A DNA stretch of 64,000 nt from Halorientalis salina (GTDB taxonomy: Archaea > Halobacteriota > Halobacteria > Halobacteriales > Haloarculaceae): the NCBI RefSeq assembly GCF_005049285.1, contig NZ_SOSC01000001.1, positions 124,001 through 188,000 on the forward strand, written 5' to 3'. This document shows positions 3,495-53,530 of the stretch, piece by piece. Position numbers and translations under genes: made by a program. The notes below the pieces were generated by a model. That model was not told the DNA's origin. It did no database searches and worked only from the letters and a program-made list of their open reading frames with translations. The first letter of the stretch is position 1. Every line of letters begins with the position of its first letter.

Positions 3495-5157
3495 CAGTCG
3501 TATTCCCCCCATCAGCCAGCGCTTTCACGTCCAGTTCCCCTTTCTCCAGCGACTCGGTCAACTCCGGTAAGACATCGAACAGATCGCCCTCGATGAAGTA
3601 GTCCGAGAAGTCCACGATGTCCGCCTCGGGGTCGGTGTTGATGGCGATGATGGTGTCTGACTCGTCCATCCCGACCTTGTGCTGGACAGCCCCGGAGATG
3701 CCCGCCGCGATGTATACGTCGGGTTCGACCACCTGCCCGGACTCCCCGATCTGGCGGTCCATGCCGACGTACTGCTCGACGTGGCCGGCGAACTGGTAGG
3801 ACGCCGTGATGACCCCGCGGGAGAGTCCGAGGTCGGCGTCCTCGAACTGATCGACCAGGTCCAGTCCCAGTTCGATGCCTTCCGTCGGGTCGTCGCCGAT
3901 GCCGCGCCCGAGCGCGACGACGACGTCGTTGCCCGAGAGGTCGACGCCGCTGTCCAACTGGTCGAAGTCCGTCACCTCGACGCGGAACCACTCGTCGTCG
4001 AGCGGCATCTCGTGTTCGACGATTTCACCCTCGCGTTCGGGATCGGGGTCGGGCAGGTCGAAACTCCCGGGAATGACCGACGCCCCCTGCGGGTGGAACT
4101 CCCGGAACGGTTTGTCGATACAGAGGATCGTCGAGTACTCGAACCCGGAGAAGTCCGGCCGCTTCATGTGGAGGATGCGGTCGAACTCCTTCTTTTCGCC
4201 CGGCCGGCCGGTCTTGGCCGGGTTCGAGATCATCGCCGACTCGATGAACAGGTCCGAGCAGTCGCTGGCCAGTCCCGAGTCGAGTTCGCCCTGCACGAGC
4301 GCCGAGAGGTCCCGCCCGTTGTTCGTCGCCGGGAAGACCGTGTAGCGCGGCTCGTCGTAGTCGCGCCAGTCCTCCTCGGGACGGTCCGCCCGTCCGTAGG
4401 GATGTCCCGCCCCGCGTGCCATGTCACAGAAGATCTCCGTGTAGGACTTGTGGCGGAACCGCGAGAGCCGGTCGTCTTCGAGGTAGACCACCACATCCGC
4501 CCCGTAGGCGATACACACCTCGGCCAACTCCTCGACCGAGTCCCCGATGAGGACCGCGATAACCTGCTCGTCAGCATCGTATTCCTCGTTGTACTCGTCC
4601 ATCAGCCCGCGGGCTTTCCCGAGCATCTCCTTGGACACGTTGATGAGGTCGCCCTGCTGAGTCTCACAGTACACCCACATGTCCTCGTAGACGCCGTCCT
4701 CGATGGCGTGGACCCACTGCTTGTCGGCGGTCGGGTGGTCGAGGTCCGGGTGTTTCTCTTCGGGCGGAACGTACTCCAGGTCCTCGCTCTCGTCCTCGTC
4801 GCTGCCTTCGACGGAATCGATACGGCTCTCGATCTGCTCTTTGGCGGATTTGCGGTCCTTGCCGTCCTTCTCGCGTTCGAGCATGTCCCGCAACACGTCG
4901 CCGTCGTCGACCTCCCGGACCAGGTTGGCGATGTCCGCGACGGTCTGGTCCGCGAGGTCGACCTCGCTCGGGTCGACGGTCTCCTCCTCGCCGGAGAGTT
5001 TCTCGATGCGGTCCTCGATGAGCGTCTTGACAGGGACGCGGTCCTCGCCGCCCTTTTCGAGGGCGAGCATCTCTTCGAGTTCCTGGACGTCCTCGACGTC
5101 TTTGATCTTCGGCCCCAGGTCCGCGATCTCGTGGTCGGTCGGGTCGATGTCCGGCAT
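3487..5157 (-). CDS. etfA: Electron transfer flavoprotein alpha subunit with N-terminal extension
   Basis: The 556-residue protein is much longer than a usual EtfA (about 310-330). Residues from roughly 155 on are the standard ETF domain, including the FAD-binding signature around PDVYIAAGISGAVQHKVGMD and INTDPEADI. The first 120 residues hold two copies of a helical module (about 11-53 and 74-115) sharing the pattern AD...V-D...L--ML--EK-G-DR---K--IE-RI, followed by an acidic linker. EtfA/EtfB accept electrons from acyl-CoA dehydrogenases. The ATG at 5157 lies two bases past the stop of etfB. The role of the extension is unknown. Confidence 0.93.
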   Translation of the reverse strand: MPDIDPTDHEIADLGPKIKDVEDVQELEEMLALEKGGEDRVPVKTLIEDRIEKLSGEEETVDPSEVDLADQTVADIANLVREVDDGDVLRDMLEREKDGKDRKSAKEQIESRIDSVEGSDEDESEDLEYVPPEEKHPDLDHPTADKQWVHAIEDGVYEDMWVYCETQQGDLINVSKEMLGKARGLMDEYNEEYDADEQVIAVLIGDSVEELAEVCIAYGADVVVYLEDDRLSRFRHKSYTEIFCDMARGAGHPYGRADRPEEDWRDYDEPRYTVFPATNNGRDLSALVQGELDSGLASDCSDLFIESAMISNPAKTGRPGEKKEFDRILHMKRPDFSGFEYSTILCIDKPFREFHPQGASVIPGSFDLPDPDPEREGEIVEHEMPLDDEWFRVEVTDFDQLDSGVDLSGNDVVVALGRGIGDDPTEGIELGLDLVDQFEDADLGLSRGVITASYQFAGHVEQYVGMDRQIGESGQVVEPDVYIAAGISGAVQHKVGMDESDTIIAINTDPEADIVDFSDYFIEGDLFDVLPELTESLEKGELDVKALADGGNTTDD

Positions 5158-35471: not shown

Positions 35472-35478
35472 CGTCCCG

Positions 35479-35484
35479 TTTTTT
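35479..35484 (+). terminator. Oligo-T terminator of the acyl-CoA dehydrogenase gene
   Basis: TTTTTT begins eight bases after the stop at 35471, a typical archaeal termination tract. Confidence 0.4.
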
Positions 35485-35622
35485 CGCTTCGGGTCACCTC
35501 ACTCGCGTTGCTCGCTGCGGACACCGCTCGCGGAAAAACTTACGCGAAAAAAGCGGAATTTGCGCAGGCACCAGTTCAGTGCATCGACTCCCTGTGGTTG
35601 ACGGATGCGTGACTGGGATCGT

Positions 35623-35865
35623 TCAAGCGCGGTTCGCTTCTCGTGAAACCAAACCCCAGTTTGAAACGAGAAACGGTGTCAGGTAGTTCAGAACGATCTT
35701 GGCAGAGAGAGCGGTAGATAGCCCCGCCGAAAGTAACATGTCGCCTTGGTTGTAGAGCGTCAACCACGTTCCGACGACGATCGTAATGGCAAGTGTCCGT
35801 CTCAAGTGTGGCGGGTGAAAACAGACCTCTGCCGAGCGTCGGACAGGATCTTTCATCCAGTACAT
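35623..35865 (-). CDS. nrtS: NrtS-like small membrane protein
   Basis: 80 residues with two membrane segments: TLAITIVVGTWLTLYNQGDM and KIVLNYLTPFLVSNWGLVS. The pattern VGT...L.NQGD.LL.....A...K...NYL.PF.VSN.G is that of the NrtS family, described as nitrate/nitrite transporters in cyanobacteria and widely annotated in haloarchaea. A second ATG three codons in is also possible. No nitrate genes are nearby, so the substrate is uncertain. Confidence 0.68.
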   Translation of the reverse strand: MYWMKDPVRRSAEVCFHPPHLRRTLAITIVVGTWLTLYNQGDMLLSAGLSTALSAKIVLNYLTPFLVSNWGLVSREANRA

Positions 35866-35988
35866 CGACTTCTATGCGATAATCCAGTGTTCTTCGATGC
35901 GGTCGCACACAGCCTGTACTGGGCAAGGTCGTTGCGGCCCGTTCGTCAGAACCGCCCACGGAGCAACGAGTCAGTAAGCAGTGAACTA

Positions 35989-36462
35989 CCCCGCCCTACC
36001 GCGCTTGGGGCTACTCGCCCCTCGTTTGTTGAGGGCGGGGTCGTCCGAAAATCGGAGATTTTCGTGATCACGAAAGACTTCGTCTTTCGAACGACTTCCT
36101 GGTTCTGCGTCGGCACTTGCACCCGACGTGGGCACAGCGTTAACGAGAGCGAAGCTCTCGTTCGCCCACCAGAAATCGGAGATTTCTGGGGACGGTCCCA
36201 GACTCCGCAGGCGACTTCCCTTGATAGGTGGTTCGGAGTGTCCCACTCCTACCGGCTCAACACTCGGCCACAACCGACGACGCACGCTTCTTATCGCGTT
36301 TGAACGTCGTCGGGAGCGTGGTGAGCATCTTACTACTTCTGTTCAACCGCGAAGGTAGTAAGGGTCTGCCGTCCAGTGAAAGTGAAACGATGGCGGGCGC
36401 TGTATCCTCTTCCTACTCACTCGCTAACGATCGCTCGTTGAGGAAGAGGGGGTTTAGCGCCC
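35989..36462. repeat. Hairpin-dense non-coding block, possible IS200/IS605-derived (PATE/MITE-like) element
   Basis: About 470 bases consist almost entirely of perfect inverted repeats. They are: 35989-36040 (9-base arms CCCCGCCCT, with an inner GGGGC hairpin), 36046-36064, 36071-36089, 36108-36128, 36142-36162, 36169-36189, 36189-36199, 36235-36249, 36274-36313, 36329-36362 and 36395-36462 (7- and 9-base stems, GGGCGCT and CCTCTTCCT, around an inner AACGA hairpin). Several have three-base GGA, GAA or TTC loops. No convincing protein gene fits. Large palindromes at both ends suggest a transposase-less relative of haloarchaeal IS200/IS605 elements, or a structured RNA. Confidence 0.55.
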
Positions 36463-36508
36463 TGCACCACAGAAGCTAAACCGACGCGCCCCACCGATGT
36501 GGGTATAG

Positions 36509-38155
36509 ATGGGGGTGTTGCAATTCACGGTCGGGCCGTCGTGGCTGCCGGTCTGGCCGATGCTCGTTCTCGCCGGCGTCCTCCTGTCGCTGGGGATCGC
36601 CCTTCGAATCGCCCGGCCACAGGGCGCGTGGGGCCGACGCCTCCGCGCACGGTTTTTCCTCGGCATCCCGTGGGGAACGCTGCTGACTGTCGTCGGCGTC
36701 GCGGCCGTCTACCTGTTCCTTCAGGGCGGCCTCGCACACCCTCGCAACCCGCTGGTAGTTCCGTTCCGCGCGTGGTCGTACTTCTACCCGCTCGGGGTCC
36801 TGACCGCACCGTTCACCCACGCCGGTCTCGGACACGTCACGGGCAACCTGCTCGGCACGCTTGCCTTCGCGCCCATCGCGGAGTACGCCTGGAGCCACTT
36901 CCCGACGACGCGCGGGAGCCAGTCGTTCAGCACGTGGCGAGCGAACCCCTTCGTTCGCATCCTGCTGTTCCCCATCGGTGTCTTCGCGGTCGGCGTGCTC
37001 ACCGGCGTCTTCGCTCTGGGACCGGTCATCGGCTTCTCCGGCGTCGTGTTCGCCTTCGCCGGCTTCGCGCTGGTTTCTTACCCCATCGCGACCGTCGTCG
37101 CGCTCTCCGGGATGGAAGTGCTGAACCTGCTCTACCAGGCGGCCCTGAACCCGGTCCAGATCGCACAGTCTGGGCCGCAATTTATCACGCCCTGGTGGGC
37201 GCAGGTCGCCGTCCAGGGACATGCGCTCGGACTGTTGCTCGGTGTCCTGCTCGGCGGGTACGTCGCCTATCGCCACGACCGCCGGCCACCGGCCGGACGG
37301 CTCTGGCTCGCCTCGGTCGTCTTCGTCGTGGCCCAGTCGCTGTGGGCCGTCTACTGGTTCCGCGGGGGCGGCCGCTACGTCCTGTTCCGCGCGGCCGGCG
37401 TGTTCCTCGTCTTCCTCCTGGCCGCACTGATAACGGCCGCCGTCAGCGGGTCGAGCAAACGGATTCTCGGTCGCTTCAGGCTCGGATCCAGCGTGGTCGC
37501 CGCCGGCTTGCTGCTGTCCGTGACGGTCGCGCTGGCCGGCGCTGCGGTGCTTCCGAACCTCGTGTTCGTCTCCGCGGATCCCTTCGACAATAGCGTCCAG
37601 GTCGAGGACTACACTGTCACCTACGCCGAGGACGTCGAGGACCAGTACGTCTCCGCAGTCGACGTCTCGCTGTTCGGTGAGACGACCGAAATCAACACCA
37701 GCGGCGTCATCGTCGTCAGCGAACGCCGGAGCGTCTTCCAGACGATGGTCTCGAAGAACCGGCTGGCGTTTCAGGGTCGCGCGACCGTCGTCGTCGGTGG
37801 CCCCGGCTGGCGTGAGACGGTCGTGGTCAACCGCAGTGGATGGCAGGCAGCGGGTAACAGCAGCGTCTACAAGGTGTTCCTGAACCCGCCGGACGGCGAC
37901 CGCCGGCTGGCCTTCCAATCGGATGCGACGACCGTCGAACCGCGCATCGCCGGCCGCCGAGTGCTCATCGGACCCACGGAGTCGTCGTTCCGGTTCACGG
38001 TCATCGACGAGAACCAGTCCATCGGATCGGTCGGGGTTCCGGCGACTGGTGAGAACGTCAGCGCCGGCGGGCTCCGCTTCAACAGGACCGAGGAGGGCGT
38101 CTTCGTCGAACGGAACGGGACGAGGGTGCGGATCGCACAGCGGGAAAACGCCTAA
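36509..38155 (+). CDS. Rhomboid family intramembrane serine protease with C-terminal outer domain
   Basis: 548 residues. The rhomboid catalytic features are in order: His104-x4-His109-x3-Asn113 (HAGLGHVTGN), the serine in GFSG (Ser177) and His238 in GHALG. About eight membrane segments end near residue 355. The last about 190 residues form a soluble domain with many N-x-S/T sequons (NTS, NRS, NSS, NQS, NVS, NRT, NGT), so it probably lies outside the cell and is glycosylated. Rhomboids cut membrane proteins within the bilayer. The stop overlaps the stop of the convergent methyltransferase gene by CTAA. Confidence 0.85.
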   Translation: MGVLQFTVGPSWLPVWPMLVLAGVLLSLGIALRIARPQGAWGRRLRARFFLGIPWGTLLTVVGVAAVYLFLQGGLAHPRNPLVVPFRAWSYFYPLGVLTAPFTHAGLGHVTGNLLGTLAFAPIAEYAWSHFPTTRGSQSFSTWRANPFVRILLFPIGVFAVGVLTGVFALGPVIGFSGVVFAFAGFALVSYPIATVVALSGMEVLNLLYQAALNPVQIAQSGPQFITPWWAQVAVQGHALGLLLGVLLGGYVAYRHDRRPPAGRLWLASVVFVVAQSLWAVYWFRGGGRYVLFRAAGVFLVFLLAALITAAVSGSSKRILGRFRLGSSVVAAGLLLSVTVALAGAAVLPNLVFVSADPFDNSVQVEDYTVTYAEDVEDQYVSAVDVSLFGETTEINTSGVIVVSERRSVFQTMVSKNRLAFQGRATVVVGGPGWRETVVVNRSGWQAAGNSSVYKVFLNPPDGDRRLAFQSDATTVEPRIAGRRVLIGPTESSFRFTVIDENQSIGSVGVPATGENVSAGGLRFNRTEEGVFVERNGTRVRIAQRENA

Positions 38156-47225: not shown

Positions 47226-48125
47226 ATGACGACTGTGCGCGTCGCCGTGCCCAGGAAAGGGCGACCGCTCGAAGCCGTCCTCGAACGGATCGCCAGTCGC
47301 ACCGGCACGACCGACCTCGCCGACGAAATCATCTCGACGCTTCAGTACGAAAAAGCCGTCACGAAAGGCAAACAGACCGCCGACTCTGACGTGTACGAAC
47401 GCCTCGCGACCTACAGCGACCTCTACGAGGACAGTACACCTGAGTTCACGCTCATGCGCGACGACCGCGAGGGGATGCCCCGTCGCATCGTCTTCGATAG
47501 CGTGACCGTCTCCGCCGACGACATCGACATCCAACTGGTCGGCCGGGAGGAACCGTTCCGTGCACTCCGGAAACACGAGTTCGCGCTCGGCTTCGACAGC
47601 GCCGATCTCGTCCTGGAGGAAGTCGTCGAACTGACGGCCGACCCGCTCAGATCCCTCGCGGAAGTCAACGACCGGATCGACCCGCGGGACACGGACGTTC
47701 GGATCGTGTCTGGTCTCGGTGATACGGTCTGGCACTCCCTGTTAGCGACGCCCGAAATCAGACGCGAACTCGATGGGGAGCTAAACCGATCGTTCGTCGA
47801 CGCCTACGAGGGCGAGTTCTGTATCTCGCCCCGATACGAGCGACTGGTCGAGGCGGTGCTGGGGACCGACGCTATCGAGAACCTCTCCTTTACCTATCCC
47901 GAACCGGGGACGGTCGAGGAAGCAGCCATCGCCGAGACGGGGATCGGCGTCTACCTCACGGTCACAGGGTCGACGGCCCACGACCACGGCCTCGAACTCG
48001 GCGAAAAGCTGTTCCCCAGTGAGACCGTGCTGTTGGAAAACACGGCGGAAAAAACCGAGGCCGTCGAGCAGGCGACCGACGTCATCGTCGACTCCGATCT
48101 GGAGACCGAACTGGCGACGTCTTGA
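47226..48125 (+). CDS. HisG-like (ATP phosphoribosyltransferase-fold) protein
   Basis: 299 residues starting MTTVRVAVPRKGRPLEAVLE, very like the HisG opening (xxIAxPxKGR). A middle segment FRALRKHEFALGFDSADLVL recalls the HisG region around IPELV..G..D.GI.G.D. The late ETGIGVYLTVTGSTAHDHGL recalls the PRPP-binding ETGxTLxxNGL stretch. Divergence is strong, and the PRPP-binding residues are not clearly conserved, so enzyme activity is doubtful. It follows the coiled-coil gene and is the last gene before the 2.6 kb desert. A plain hypothetical is the alternative. Confidence 0.6.
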   Translation: MTTVRVAVPRKGRPLEAVLERIASRTGTTDLADEIISTLQYEKAVTKGKQTADSDVYERLATYSDLYEDSTPEFTLMRDDREGMPRRIVFDSVTVSADDIDIQLVGREEPFRALRKHEFALGFDSADLVLEEVVELTADPLRSLAEVNDRIDPRDTDVRIVSGLGDTVWHSLLATPEIRRELDGELNRSFVDAYEGEFCISPRYERLVEAVLGTDAIENLSFTYPEPGTVEEAAIAETGIGVYLTVTGSTAHDHGLELGEKLFPSETVLLENTAEKTEAVEQATDVIVDSDLETELATS

Positions 48126-50737
48126 TTCTGCAATCCAATATTGGCGAGCGGGTTCTAACAGACGATCCGATCAGAATCACGACCGGTCGCTGATCGAGCG
48201 ATTCGAATACGGCCCTTTGCGCCGCGGGAACGATTCGGTCACCATACCGCAGACGACTCTGATCGCCTCTACGAGCTGTAATCGCAGTTTTTCGATACTC
48301 GTCACCGCACAGATCTCGATTCGAATTTCGGCCACTTTCCGTATAGCGACATACGGTATATGAGTTCGGTAGCGAACACGCCACTATGTCGAGTATCTGC
48401 AAAAAGTACTGGAATCACGGCCAGATCGTCGCCGATGAGTGTTCTGCGGATACAGCGGCGTGCTGACTTCTGATTTATCCCGATAGATGTGTTACGGATG
48501 CCTTACTGGCACACAACTTGGATACAGCACACCTGGTCCAGCAACACGAACCGATTTGCCGTCTCTCGGCTGGATCTCCCTGGGATTCACGGCGGACAAA
48601 TGGGACGTGATCTTGATGATGCTGTCTGCTCGATACACAGAGGTTCCAACGACTCGGAGACGTCCGACCGTGGGCTTAGAGACTGAGATTTTCGGTAGAA
48701 TTGGCGAGCCACACCTGGCGGACCCACATAGACATTGACATGATCCGTGTTGTCGAATTGGGACTCTGTATCTGACCAGGGTTACCGGTGAAATGAACTC
48801 CACCGGGTTCGATAACCGCGTAACGTCAGTGCTCCGGCACGACATGCGACGAGGTGCTGTAAATCGAATGGAATGTTTGCCCACTGGGCGACCTGCGACC
48901 TACCAGAGCGTTACGTTGGCCAGCTGTTTCCGCGAAGACAGCCACTCCAGGGGATCGACCAGATTCGAGTAACTCGATCATGGAGAACCCAGTGTTAACT
49001 CCGAATCGGTTTGAAGACGGTATCGTCGGCTGTGCGTTCCACGGTAGGTTACGTCTCAGAACAGGATATACTCCATCGGCTTTGCTGTCTTCGTAGTGCT
49101 CTGAGTAACGGCGCAACGACAGTAGAACGGTTCAGCATCGGAAAACAAATCCGGTCTTTGCAGGCACTCACAGCGACGGAGCAATCGTGAACACGAGGGA
49201 CAACTCGTTTCACTGGCAGCCGTTGCGATGAAAAAACCGCCGGCGAGGCACATCCCGGATATCGATCTGTCTCAGAAGCCGTGCTTTTGGAGTCCGAGTC
49301 CGCCACTGTTCTCGACGTGTACAACAAATTCCCCAAGGCGTATCACTGAAAGTACTGATTTTCTGGCCGAGATACGAGGCGTCCGGTCACAGCGATAGAC
49401 GCCGATTCGATCGGACAGAGGTTCGGTTCCGTCCGACTGTACGATCAGTCTCGGTCGGTCTGGATTCCCGTCCCTGGAAGCACCGATGTTCGGCCTCTAC
49501 CCTGGGGGTCAGCGTCTGATTCCCCCCTTCCAGAGGAGTCCGCTGATGAAGTGATTGGAAACTAGTTCCGTTGGAGGCCCCAGTTTAATATTCGTCTTAC
49601 CATCACCAGTCACTGATTTTCTAACACCAGTTACCCAAATATTGTACTTTGTAGGCGAGTTATTTGATGCTGATAACTCAAATAAGATAGTTTATTTGGG
49701 TAACTGTGTCGTTTCGATCCGTGTGTTAATCCATTCAATTCGAATCGGTGGGTCGACATTCGGATCGCGTTTTTCTCCTGACTAACGCTATCGGTTTGAC
49801 TTCATTGGCGCTCAATCGAACCAGTACCCCTGCTGGACTGTGGCCTTCGCTGGAGGAAGACCCCGGTACTGGTGGTTCCGGAACACGAGTCTTTGATCTC
49901 GTCAGTTGGCAACGACGAACCGATCAAAAAATTCTGGCTATACGTACTTTACGTCGAAGAGTATCGGCGTCGTCTAAAACAAGCAAAAACCAGGGATACT
50001 GCTAAATCCGAAACTCTTCCACACGATCAATGCTTTGCACGGGACCTATAAACGGCATTACGCTATATCGATTGGCTTTGTTAGTTCGGATATCCGCCGA
50101 AGATTCACAGTGCCGATAGAATGGTTCTGTGCCCGATGTGGGCACATTCTCAGTGATTGAGGTTACTTTGAAACCCGTACTGTATGACTGTTTCGGAGTC
50201 GCAGGTTCGAGGTGTCGGCTGGGACAGATACCGAATTGTTACTGTCCGGCATCGCTGCCGACCTGCCTGCGTCGCATAATCGATTAACCACCTTCGATAC
50301 CCGACTTAGCTGGACGCGTCTTTCAGATTTTTCTCAGCGAACTCCTGCGTGAACACCTCCCACGCGACGCTTTGCTGTTAACGTCCCGATCCCGGGTGAC
50401 GAGGTGTAGGGTCCCCATCGACTTTCACTGCCGACCGGGAGAACCAGGGCGGGATGGCACCGTGTTCTTCAATTACACTCCGGAAACGGCGAATTTGTGG
50501 TGTGAGCTCCTCGCTGTCTCATCGCCTACTCGGTATTACCCCGATCCAGCCGGAACGTGGGGGTTCGTCGCAGGCCCGAAAGGACTGACTCTCAGAAACG
50601 GTGAATACCCGGTCAAAGAGGGGTTCGCTGGCATTTCAGTCGGGATTTTGCGGAGCCATGCGAAGCTCCATCGACCTGATTTGCTTATTCGGATTACTGA
50701 GGACAGATTAAAGACGGCATCGCGAGAAAGGGCAGAC
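48126..50737. other. AT-richer gene desert of 2.6 kb
   Basis: No supportable gene is seen. Open frames of 60-130 codons exist on both strands, but their composition is unlike haloarchaeal proteins (many Cys, Arg, Ser and Trp, few Asp/Glu) and they overlap one another. Base composition is clearly less GC-rich than on either side. Contents worth noting are a nested inverted repeat at 49628-49706 and a possible broken PIN-domain remnant on the minus strand at 50306-50418. A decayed accessory patch next to the integrase gene is the likeliest reading. Confidence 0.55.
49628..49706. repeat. Nested inverted repeat, possible miniature element
   Basis: A perfect 14-base inverted repeat (CAGTTACCCAAATA at 49628-49641 and its complement at 49693-49706) encloses 51 bases that include a second perfect 7-base hairpin (GAGTTAT at 49657-49663, ATAACTC at 49673-49679). 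The whole 79-base unit could fold into one cruciform. No clear target duplication is visible at its edges. Confidence 0.6.
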
Positions 50738-51139
50738 ATGGCAACCGAGCGGGACGCTGACACGACTCGGACAGCGGTCCGGACCTACGTGCCGTCCTAC
50801 CAGAAAGACGAGTGGGAACGTCACGCCGATGAGATGGACATGAGCCTCAGCGAGTTCGTTCGGACGATGGTTCAGGCCGGTCGGCGCGGGTTCTCGGGCG
50901 GCGACGTCCCGGATACTGACACCGATTCGGGGTCAGACTCTGGAGGCGGGACTGAGGAATTGGAAGAACGGATTCTGGCAATCCTGACGGAATCAGAGCC
51001 GCTATCCTGGGACGAGCTGTTGACTGCGGTCACCGGTGATATCGAATCGAGTCTCGACGAGACGTTACAGGAGCTCCAAGCCGCGAATCGGATCCAGTAC
51101 AGCGGCCGGGAAGGCGGGTACGTGCTCGGTGAGCAATGA
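50738..51139 (+). CDS. DUF5805 family protein paired with an integrase
   Basis: 133 residues. The first half, TRTAVRTYVPSYQKDEWERH followed by ADEMDMSLSEFVRTMVQAGR, is a ribbon-helix-helix-like segment typical of DUF5805. An acidic linker and a winged-helix-like C-terminal part (LTESEPLSWDELLTAVTGDI) follow. It overlaps the integrase start by ATGA, so the two are co-translated, and this pairing recurs in haloarchaea. It probably binds DNA and assists or controls the recombinase (inference). Confidence 0.75.
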   Translation: MATERDADTTRTAVRTYVPSYQKDEWERHADEMDMSLSEFVRTMVQAGRRGFSGGDVPDTDTDSGSDSGGGTEELEERILAILTESEPLSWDELLTAVTGDIESSLDETLQELQAANRIQYSGREGGYVLGEQ

Positions 51140-52176
51140 GCCAGCAACGTGGGGCGGCTGACCCCGACGATCCGATCGGGTATTTCCTCGAAGACATCGA
51201 GTACCAAGGGAAATCATCGCGAACTCGCAACTCCTACGAGCGGGTCCTCCGGGAGTTCGAGTCGTCCCTCGGAGACCGCGGCGTCGACGGTGGACTCGAT
51301 GACATCTCCTACCGTGAGTGCATGTCCTGGGTCCACTCGTTGCGAGGGGCTCACGCCGAGAGTTCGATCGCCACGTACGCCTCCTACCTCCATCGATTTT
51401 ACTCGTATATGGTCCAGGTCGGCGTGTTCGAATCGAATCCCATGACGGTCGTCATGGAGGAGATGGACGAGTCGATCCACACCGATCCGACACGCCGAGA
51501 CATTCCGGTCGAGGAAATGCGCGGGTTCGTGGGGGCGATGCGGCACCCCCTCGACCGTGCGGTGATCGTCACACTGTTGAAAACAGGGATGCGGTCCGGT
51601 GAACTGTGTAATCTCGACGTTCGAGACGTGAACATCGCCGGGCTCGACCTGTCCGATGCGAGATTCGACGAGGTGCGTCCCCAACTGCAGGGGAAGCCAG
51701 ATTCGATATACGTAAGCCAGGAACCGGCCCAGGGAAGTCGGGTAAACGGTGAGGAACGTTCCGCCTCGAACAAGCGCAAGCGCGCAACTATCGTTCCCGT
51801 GGACGACGAGCTCAGAGCGACACTCGAACGGTGGCTGGCTGTCCGGCCCGATCCGTCGTCCTCCGCGAACCCCTTGTTCGTGACGACATCCCGGAACTGG
51901 GGCCAACGAGTGACTATCGACGCGGTCCATCACCTCGTCACGACCAACGCGGAACGCATGGGCTGGTATCGAACGGGTGGCGGCCCACAAGAGAACGTCA
52001 CACCCCACTACTTCCGGCACTTCTTCACGACACACCTCAGAGACAGGACCGGGGATCGTGGAATCGTGAAGTACCTCCGGGGCGACGTCGCCTCGGACAT
52101 CATCGATACCTACACACACAACTGGGGGTCACGCGTTCGAGACACGTACGAAGAATCGATCTACGAACTGCTCTGA
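51136..52176 (+). CDS. Tyrosine recombinase (XerC/D-like integrase)
   Basis: 346 residues. The N-terminal SAM-like core-binding domain (about 10-115) is followed by the catalytic domain. Arg153 (TGMRSGE), His291-x2-Arg294 (HYFRH) and Tyr326 (DTYTHNW) form most of the active site; the usual His/Trp between them looks like Asp317. A lysine-rich loop NKRKRATIV probably gives the beta-turn Lys. It could serve chromosome dimer resolution or integration of an element. Its partner DUF5805 gene is conserved, while the flanks on both sides are decayed DNA. Confidence 0.87.
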   Translation: MSQQRGAADPDDPIGYFLEDIEYQGKSSRTRNSYERVLREFESSLGDRGVDGGLDDISYRECMSWVHSLRGAHAESSIATYASYLHRFYSYMVQVGVFESNPMTVVMEEMDESIHTDPTRRDIPVEEMRGFVGAMRHPLDRAVIVTLLKTGMRSGELCNLDVRDVNIAGLDLSDARFDEVRPQLQGKPDSIYVSQEPAQGSRVNGEERSASNKRKRATIVPVDDELRATLERWLAVRPDPSSSANPLFVTTSRNWGQRVTIDAVHHLVTTNAERMGWYRTGGGPQENVTPHYFRHFFTTHLRDRTGDRGIVKYLRGDVASDIIDTYTHNWGSRVRDTYEESIYELL

Positions 52177-52474
52177 GCTTCGCGCTGGTCCCTTTGCAAT
52201 ATCACGAAGTAGATGTCTAATTCTTAATTAATTCAGTATTACATTCGAGTGTATCGCCTCAAATGTATAAATCATATATCGCTATACAGAACTGAGGGGT
52301 AGTGGCTGCTATTGAGAGAAGGCATTCCACGATTCGTCCTCGAGCAAAACGAAGGGTAGCAGCGTCGTTTGGTGGATGCAGTGACTCAGAATCTAGACAA
52401 GTAAGATCGATGTGACCTCGAAATAGTGTTATATCAGGATCGCCGTACGGTGGTCCCTGTTTCACCCCCAGCAA

Positions 52475-52748
52475 AGCGATCGGGAACTGAGACGACATGA
52501 GCCAAGAAAAACCGTCCCGCGAACGCTCAAGCCCGACGCCGAAGTGTACCGGGCCGTCGAGAACGCGAAGGGTGAATTCGGCGTCTAGATCCGCTCTGAC
52601 GAAATGTCCTATCCCGCACGGTTCAATATACGAAGTCCGTTTTCCCGAACCGCCAGGCGCTCCTGGAGATAGCCGAAGGCGAGTAGGCCCGAATCGGATC
52701 GGTTCGCACAGCAGTCCCGACATCGTCCTCGGGTAAGTCGACCGCTGA
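52475..52748 (+). pseudogene. nuoD: Broken 3' fragment of nuoD (NADH dehydrogenase-like subunit D)
   Basis: Translating across breaks gives VPRTLKPDAEVYRAVENAKG then EFGV-stop-IRSDEMSYPARFNIRSP, a one-base frameshift near 52640, NRQALLEIAEGE-stop, a second shift, and DIVLG-stop-VDR-stop. This follows the highly conserved C-terminus of NuoD/NuoCD (…KGEFGxYIxSDGxxxPxRxxIRxPxFxxLQAL…DIVxGExDR). The first in-frame stop is at 52586-52588, with further stops near 52682 and 52734. No other nuo gene is in the window, so this is a displaced copy of the gene's end. It lies 300 bases past the integrase. Confidence 0.72.
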
Positions 52749-52807
52749 AAGGGCCTGTTTTTGGCGAACCTAAAAGTTCAAGAGGCTCCCGTGATTCCTC
52801 ACCAGTA

Positions 52808-53530
52808 ATGAGCTCAGGACTCGCAGCGGAGACAGAGACGGAGACTGACGAGACGTTCACGTTCGACGATCTCAGCGTCGTGATGGGGACCTACAACGAG
52901 GAGGAAGCCATTGGCACAGTACTGTCGGACATCGAGTCCGTGACCGACGGCAAGGCCGAAGTCGTCTGTGTCGACGGGTCCGACGACCGAACTCCCGAGA
53001 TTGCACGGGATCACGGGGCCCGGGTCATCGAGCAGGAACCCCAGGGATACGGCGTCGCCGTCCGGGAGGCCGTCCTTTCGGCTGACCGGCCCATCGTCGT
53101 GACCACAGACTGCGACGACACGTATCCGATGGATCGACTTCCGGACTTCCTGGCGCGGATCAACGAGGGCTACGACGTGGTCAGCGGCGACCGGTTGTAC
53201 TACGGGGCCAAGACGATGCCGTCGTTCAACCGGTTCGGTAATCACGCCTTCGCGGTCCTCGCCAGTGCCCTCGCCGGCGAGCAAGTCCACGACACGACCA
53301 CCGGAATGCGCGCGTATCGGCGCGAACTCATCCAGCAGATCCAATGGACCGAGAACACCGGACTGTCGGCGGAGCTGTTGCTTCGTCCGCTGATTCGGAA
53401 CTACGAGGTCTGTGAGATCCCCATCGAGTACGGCGAACGCAAGGGCGAGACCAAACTCGATCCCCTTAGCGGTGGGGCCGCGATCGCCAAATCCATCTGC
53501 AAGGTCTGTCTGGAGGAACGGTTCCGGTAA
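52808..53530 (+). CDS. Family 2 glycosyltransferase (dolichyl-phosphate sugar synthase-like)
   Basis: 240 residues, GT-A fold without membrane segments: SVVMGTYNEEEAIGTVLSDI, VVCVDGSDDRTPEIARDHGA and TTDCDDTYP (metal-binding Asp) are typical of DPM1/AglD-like enzymes. It would move a sugar from a nucleotide donor to dolichyl phosphate or another lipid. A TATA-like CCTAAAAGTT lies about 30 bases upstream. It is convergent, end to end, with a GT-C type membrane glycosyltransferase, its plausible functional partner. Confidence 0.85.
   Translation: MSSGLAAETETETDETFTFDDLSVVMGTYNEEEAIGTVLSDIESVTDGKAEVVCVDGSDDRTPEIARDHGARVIEQEPQGYGVAVREAVLSADRPIVVTTDCDDTYPMDRLPDFLARINEGYDVVSGDRLYYGAKTMPSFNRFGNHAFAVLASALAGEQVHDTTTGMRAYRRELIQQIQWTENTGLSAELLLRPLIRNYEVCEIPIEYGERKGETKLDPLSGGAAIAKSICKVCLEERFR

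Follow-up and report, generated by a model that had tools for sequence, protein, structure and literature searches.

The hairpin-rich block at positions 35989-36462 of the Halorientalis salina window (the whole 64,000-nucleotide stretch analyzed) is most probably, at roughly 0.87 on the sequence comparisons presented here, a palindrome-associated transposable element (PATE) holding two nested and distinct double-hairpin units, A and B. PATEs have been described in Haloquadratum walsbyi (PMC3119063), and the present element is a new member of this already known kind. The four perfect hairpins with 3-nt loops are foreign to the PATE and belong to inserts A and B, which appear to be palindromic units, dispersed in haloarchaea and capable of insertion, with a preference for IS200/IS605 elements. 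The features are given below as they are met on the minus strand.

35981-36475, minus strand: whole PATE, non-autonomous, of IS200/IS605 type; 495 bp including two inserts; ends sharp in 30 or more copies
36476-36479, minus strand: presumed target TTAG (CTAA on the plus strand), outside the element; the window flank reads CTAA
36475 (left end) and 35981 (right end), minus-strand reading: PATE ends, their position fixed by the empty sites of two other copies
36395-36462, minus strand: left-end near-terminal palindrome; arms 36395-36410/36447-36462, inner arms 36406-36414/36441-36449
36329-36362, no strand assigned: inner hairpin of the PATE core (CTTACTAC/GTAGTAAG), conserved among aligned PATE copies
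35981-36260, minus strand: tnpB-3'/omegaRNA-like part, from the GGAGTGGGACACTCC hairpin to the right end; aligns with the tnpB 3' ends of L005 and L169; interrupted by A and B
36138-36192, plus strand: insert B, a 55-nt double hairpin; CGTT, hairpin 36142-36162, spacer, hairpin 36169-36189, GGGA; inserted between G and C
36041-36094, no strand assigned: insert A, a 54-nt double hairpin; TCGT, hairpin 36046-36064, TGATCA, hairpin 36071-36089, ACGA; inserted between G and C
35985-36044, minus strand: right-end near-terminal palindrome; arms 35985-35997/36032-36044, then the terminal oligonucleotide GTAGTTCAC

The first-pass annotation had described one run of hairpins that takes in nearly every base at a density beyond chance. 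The four 3-nt-loop hairpins and the larger end stems are present at the positions above, and the density does exceed chance. Perfect hairpins with loops of 3-8 nt and arms of at least 7 cover 16.9% of 35989-36462 compared with 0.8% in shuffles, the highest value among 1271 window tiles, and none of 500 dinucleotide shuffles reaches the cover of the block. At arms of at least 5 the cover is 34% compared with 9% in shuffles; "nearly every base" is too strong, since perfect hairpins with short loops account for about one third of the bases. Single strands of the block are much more stable than shuffles when folded, with z-scores of −6.5 as RNA (minus strand) and −8.0 as DNA (plus strand). The hairpins do not form one unit, because excision of A and B leaves 0% cover at arms of at least 7; the run exists, but its four 3-nt-loop members are two separate inserts.

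Identification of the block as a PATE relies on its copies, its empty sites, and its parents. With 35490-36520 as the query, PATE matches are found at 176 places in 72 plasmid records, and all genera among the matches listed are haloarchaeal. The aligned copies have a common start, GTGAACTAC (window 35981), a common end, CAG..-CTAA, and unrelated flanks; the dispersed copies with identical ends that the first-pass annotation had proposed to look for are therefore numerous and sharply bounded. A point against this identification is that the matches listed for its own genome contain the complete window element once.

Empty sites are known for two other copies. When the two flanks of the QDMS2 copy are joined, the site in Haladaptatus sp. 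DYSN1 equals them with 100% identity across the junction (L012/L254); sites in Natrinema caseinilyticum and Natribaculum breve (L255/L256) are ∼90% identical to the flanks, joined likewise, of their filled partner, the copy of Natronorubrum bangense (L013). The pairs L012/L254 and L013/L255 place the insertion exactly and directly 3' of TTAG on the minus strand, with no target duplication. The limits of the window copy (35981-36475) and its target (36476-36479) follow from this rule, which predicts an empty-site junction on the minus strand of ..GGTTTAG joined to TGCTTACTGACT... For the window copy, no exact empty site is found in the genus relatives, in which the whole 1-kb intergenic region is missing. 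The stretch of ∼500 bp between an acyl-CoA dehydrogenase-like gene and the PATE (35472-35980) is, like the PATE, absent from these relatives.

The element has near-terminal palindromes and lacks terminal inverted repeats; it is non-coding and too short for a transposase, its ends are akin to those of IS605-type transposons (TnpB-coding elements of the same genome), and insertion is exact without target duplication as judged from the empty and filled pairs of the two other copies. The PATEs of Haloquadratum walsbyi (PMC3119063) are alike in their near-terminal palindromes, the lack of terminal inverted repeats and of target duplication, their IS605-type ends, and a length below transposase size. 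In contrast with these, the present sequence family spans many genera, and the window copy carries two nested double-hairpin inserts.

Both ends of the block are matched by TnpB-coding elements of IS1341 type in the same genome (L005, L165/L176, L169). The matching right end reads ..GTAGTTCAC and the matching left end GCTGTATCCCC..CTTAGCGCC.., and the sequence of the left-end palindrome is also found at the left end of the TnpB-coding L005, L165, and L169. The Pfam domains in these TnpB-coding elements are OrfB_IS605 and Cas12f1-like_TNB; a TnpA gene adjoins the TnpB gene at one locus of this genome. On the minus strand, the block consists of the left-end palindrome, a remnant, the tnpB-3'/omegaRNA-like part, and the right-end palindrome, and the alignment with tnpB 3' ends extends over the GGAGTGGGACACTCC hairpin as well as the right-end palindrome. 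Copies, empty sites, and parents with the same ends thus support the annotation's option of a transposase-less IS200/IS605-related element of the PATE kind. IS200/IS605 and IS1341-type elements that carry tnpB with an omegaRNA (sotRNA RF02656/RF02657, PMC12558985) share with the block its ends, the TTAG by the left end, and the tnpB 3' end with its right-end hairpin; they differ in that tnpA and the body of tnpB are absent from the block, and that RF02656/RF02657 leave it unmatched.

A second option of the annotation, a guide-RNA-like remnant of a TnpB element, holds for the tnpB-3'/omegaRNA-like region, but not for the 3-nt-loop hairpins, which are inserts. The compensatory changes that were to be looked for are present in 18 of the 49 predicted pairs of this part (23 sequences) and in the stem of the right-end palindrome. 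Conservation of these pairs despite the loss of tnpB could be taken to indicate a functional stand-alone guide RNA locus, in which a minus-strand RNA from the tnpB-3'/omegaRNA-like part loads TnpB made elsewhere and the flank 35980-35961 serves as the guide. The genome has 27 TnpB domains above the cut-off that could supply the protein, and expression and processing of omegaRNAs have been described in haloarchaea (PMC12558985). The conserved pairs are equally expected if the palindromes act as DNA in transposition, however, and the scaffold of the window copy is broken by two inserts. A covariance search of the block against Rfam, sot families included, returned only a match at chance level, and a known RNA family was rejected as the identity of the block. 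We regard such a locus as unlikely, and a free-standing structured RNA, though conceivable, is not needed to explain the block. Among the other copies, RF02656 and RF02657 match only a different locus in L018 (Natronorubrum aibiense), where a sot2652 omegaRNA match under the gathering score lies at 3704-3948, near the PATE copy.

The block had also been described as being without a gene, and the substitution pattern bears this out. Many PATE copies, such as L013, have an uninterrupted open reading frame (ORF) of 77 codons on their minus strand, and in L027 it remains open despite a 54-nt insert, as it might if the PATE carried a small peptide as cargo. The ORF has a pN/pS of ∼1 and no third-position excess, a Pfam search of it yields no family above the cut-off, and in the window copy the frame stops after 23 codons. 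A conserved protein across the hairpins was rejected on this pattern, and peptide cargo is very improbable.

Both inserts lie in the tnpB-3'/omegaRNA-like part of the window PATE, each consisting of two perfect hairpins with 3-nt loops, and each is missing from most PATE copies at the corresponding position. A covariance model of insert A, built from 25 copies, detects it in 247 of 292 haloarchaeal genomes and in 69 of 77 genera. A search of 84,980 species genomes for the exact pattern of A gives 36 stretches, all haloarchaeal by title, and the pattern is not found in viral contigs. In 36 copies of A, the unit is preceded by G every time and followed by C in 35. Pairing is kept at 98.3%, both partners having changed in 9 of 21 pairs, and none of 500 shuffles reaches the percentage paired. 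Other locations of insert A are a second position within PATEs (L015, L040, L042), the TnpB tail (L060, L286), and a site directly adjoining a sot2652-like omegaRNA (L151). In this genome, four of the seven copies of A among the matches listed are within 300 bp of a TnpB domain, compared with 0.04 expected.

Empty and filled alleles of A are known both in PATEs and in tnpA. The empty allele of tnpA (Y1_Tnp) reads ..CTGTCG^CTCCACATC.., and in the filled allele this G and C are separated by 54 nt (TCGT..ACGA); copies of ∼99% identity differ by exactly A, with no duplication (L208 compared with L244/L245). In several genomes A sits inside, not beside, an IS200-type tnpA. Of the 13 filled alleles seen, 11 contain exactly 54 nt; the middle of A provides an in-frame TGA in eight and GGA in five. 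The A-filled IS200-type tnpA loci (L204-L213, L219, L221, and L222) come from several haloarchaeal families and have the insert at one codon boundary, with purifying selection on both sides. The filled alleles are not monophyletic: the tree requires 10 changes, of which six or more are forced by well-supported branches (p 6e-59). The site was therefore filled or emptied repeatedly or mixed by recombination, and recombination between IS copies could account for part of the mosaic. Purifying selection is alike in the two kinds of allele, with a pN/pS of 0.11-0.13 in filled and 0.12 in empty ones. Recoding of the in-frame TGA was considered and is not needed, as the filled alleles are scattered and the insertions may be recent.

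The covariance model of insert B, built from 30 copies, detects it in 271 of 292 haloarchaeal genomes and in 73 of 77 genera; in a phylum-wide sample the matches are 52 haloarchaea and three weak outsiders. Pairing is kept at 98.4%, 10 of 22 pairs are changed on both sides, and 0 of 500 shuffles reach the percentage paired. Empty and filled alleles are known in PATEs and in a TnpB tail, where B sits in frame in L004 and L005 is the empty counterpart. Six of the 16 copies of B among the matches listed in this genome lie within 1.5 kb of a TnpB domain, compared with 0.39 expected. Units of B type are also intergenic, by T-rich runs and larger palindromes of GAACGGAGTGAGC type with no TnpB near (L160, L161, L163, L164, L166, and L167), and these are possibly used as terminators or in a REP-like manner.

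Stand-alone matches with nearly the limits of A or B are found in many genomes and in unrelated contexts, and both inserts are able to sit in frame within transposon genes. The arms remain perfect while the loops vary freely. Such compensatory changes are no proof of RNA or DNA function, since template switching from arm to arm gives perfect palindromes too. The same outcome is what would be seen if A and B were convergent regulatory or terminator-like hairpins, formed locally by palindrome-forming replication errors and not mobile, and the location of some B copies in intergenic regions beside T-rich stretches is in keeping with such an origin. A local origin is nevertheless quite improbable, because the same sequences of 54-56 nt occur in unrelated contexts across genera, insertion into near-identical tnpA alleles is exact, and the copies have in common a two-hairpin sequence beyond mere shape. 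Further double-hairpin inserts are in frame in tnpA: a 51-nt insert (CPK^YRH; L211, L213, L225, L227, and L229), whose last three bases are CAG or TAG depending on the allele, and a 42-nt insert (L217 and L226).

Rickettsia palindromic elements are placed in frame within genes. These elements and REP-type repeats (PMC3733652) resemble A and B as short palindromic units, some of which are inside genes, and together with the SMR-A small mobile repeats of Haloquadratum (PMC3119063), the Rickettsia elements are the closest to A and B, which stand apart from both by their length, design, site, and targets. With SMR-A, the inserts share the lack of target duplication, a preference for PATE and IS605-type elements, and a location at near-terminal palindromes in some cases. 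They are 42-60 nt long (54 and 55 in the window) compared with ∼110 bp, which places them outside the SMR-A length, and their two-hairpin design, strict G^C site, and position inside tnpA and tnpB frames set them apart from HqIRS42/43/55 by description. That A is a piece of the 110-bp SMR-A was rejected; its copies in J07HQW1 (Haloquadratum) share TnpB-tail-like sequence beyond A and reveal no 110-bp unit. Relative to the Rickettsia elements and REP repeats, A and B are set apart by description as two-hairpin units almost confined to Halobacteria. They also lack the GTAG tag of RAYT-associated REP sequences, as A ends in TCGT/ACGA and B in CGTT/GGGA. No dedicated transposase is known for the CGTC class of REP-type repeats (PMC3733652).

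Searches of the open-access literature found neither A nor B described. The two inserts are apparently undescribed and would be among the smallest known elements capable of insertion. Most sampled haloarchaeal genomes contain them, and they have repeatedly invaded genes and guide-RNA regions of the TnpB transposon family, from which Cas12 arose. We tentatively suggest, at less than even confidence, that A, B, and the 51- and 42-nt units represent a class of tiny mobile DNA of haloarchaea that spreads mainly through invasion of IS200/IS605 elements, their tnpA, tnpB, and guide-RNA regions included, and can toggle tnpA via the TGA or GGA in the middle of A; equally tentative are the features proposed for this class, namely two hairpins, a strict G^C site for A, lack of duplication, and a position that is often in frame. 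The exact empty and filled tnpA alleles, some of them within single genomes, render the origin of the units, their enzyme, and their effect on the transposase directly testable.

Under the favored reading of a PATE with two nested inserts, the element would be a copy of an IS1341/IS200-IS605-type transposon minus its coding body, retaining both ends and the tnpB 3' end with the omegaRNA-like region. By analogy with IS200/IS605, it would move as single-stranded DNA, with a Y1 (HUH) TnpA acting in trans to cut and join it, and would insert 3' of TTAG without duplication, as on the two other copies. A and B would then have entered the PATE between G and C, again without duplication; the most likely guess for their mover is a single-strand transposase that recognizes hairpins.

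Elsewhere in the window, the stretch 48001-53000 has a lower GC content (51-61%) and a tyrosine-recombinase-like ORF at 51136-52176 on the plus strand, and is perhaps an integrated element.
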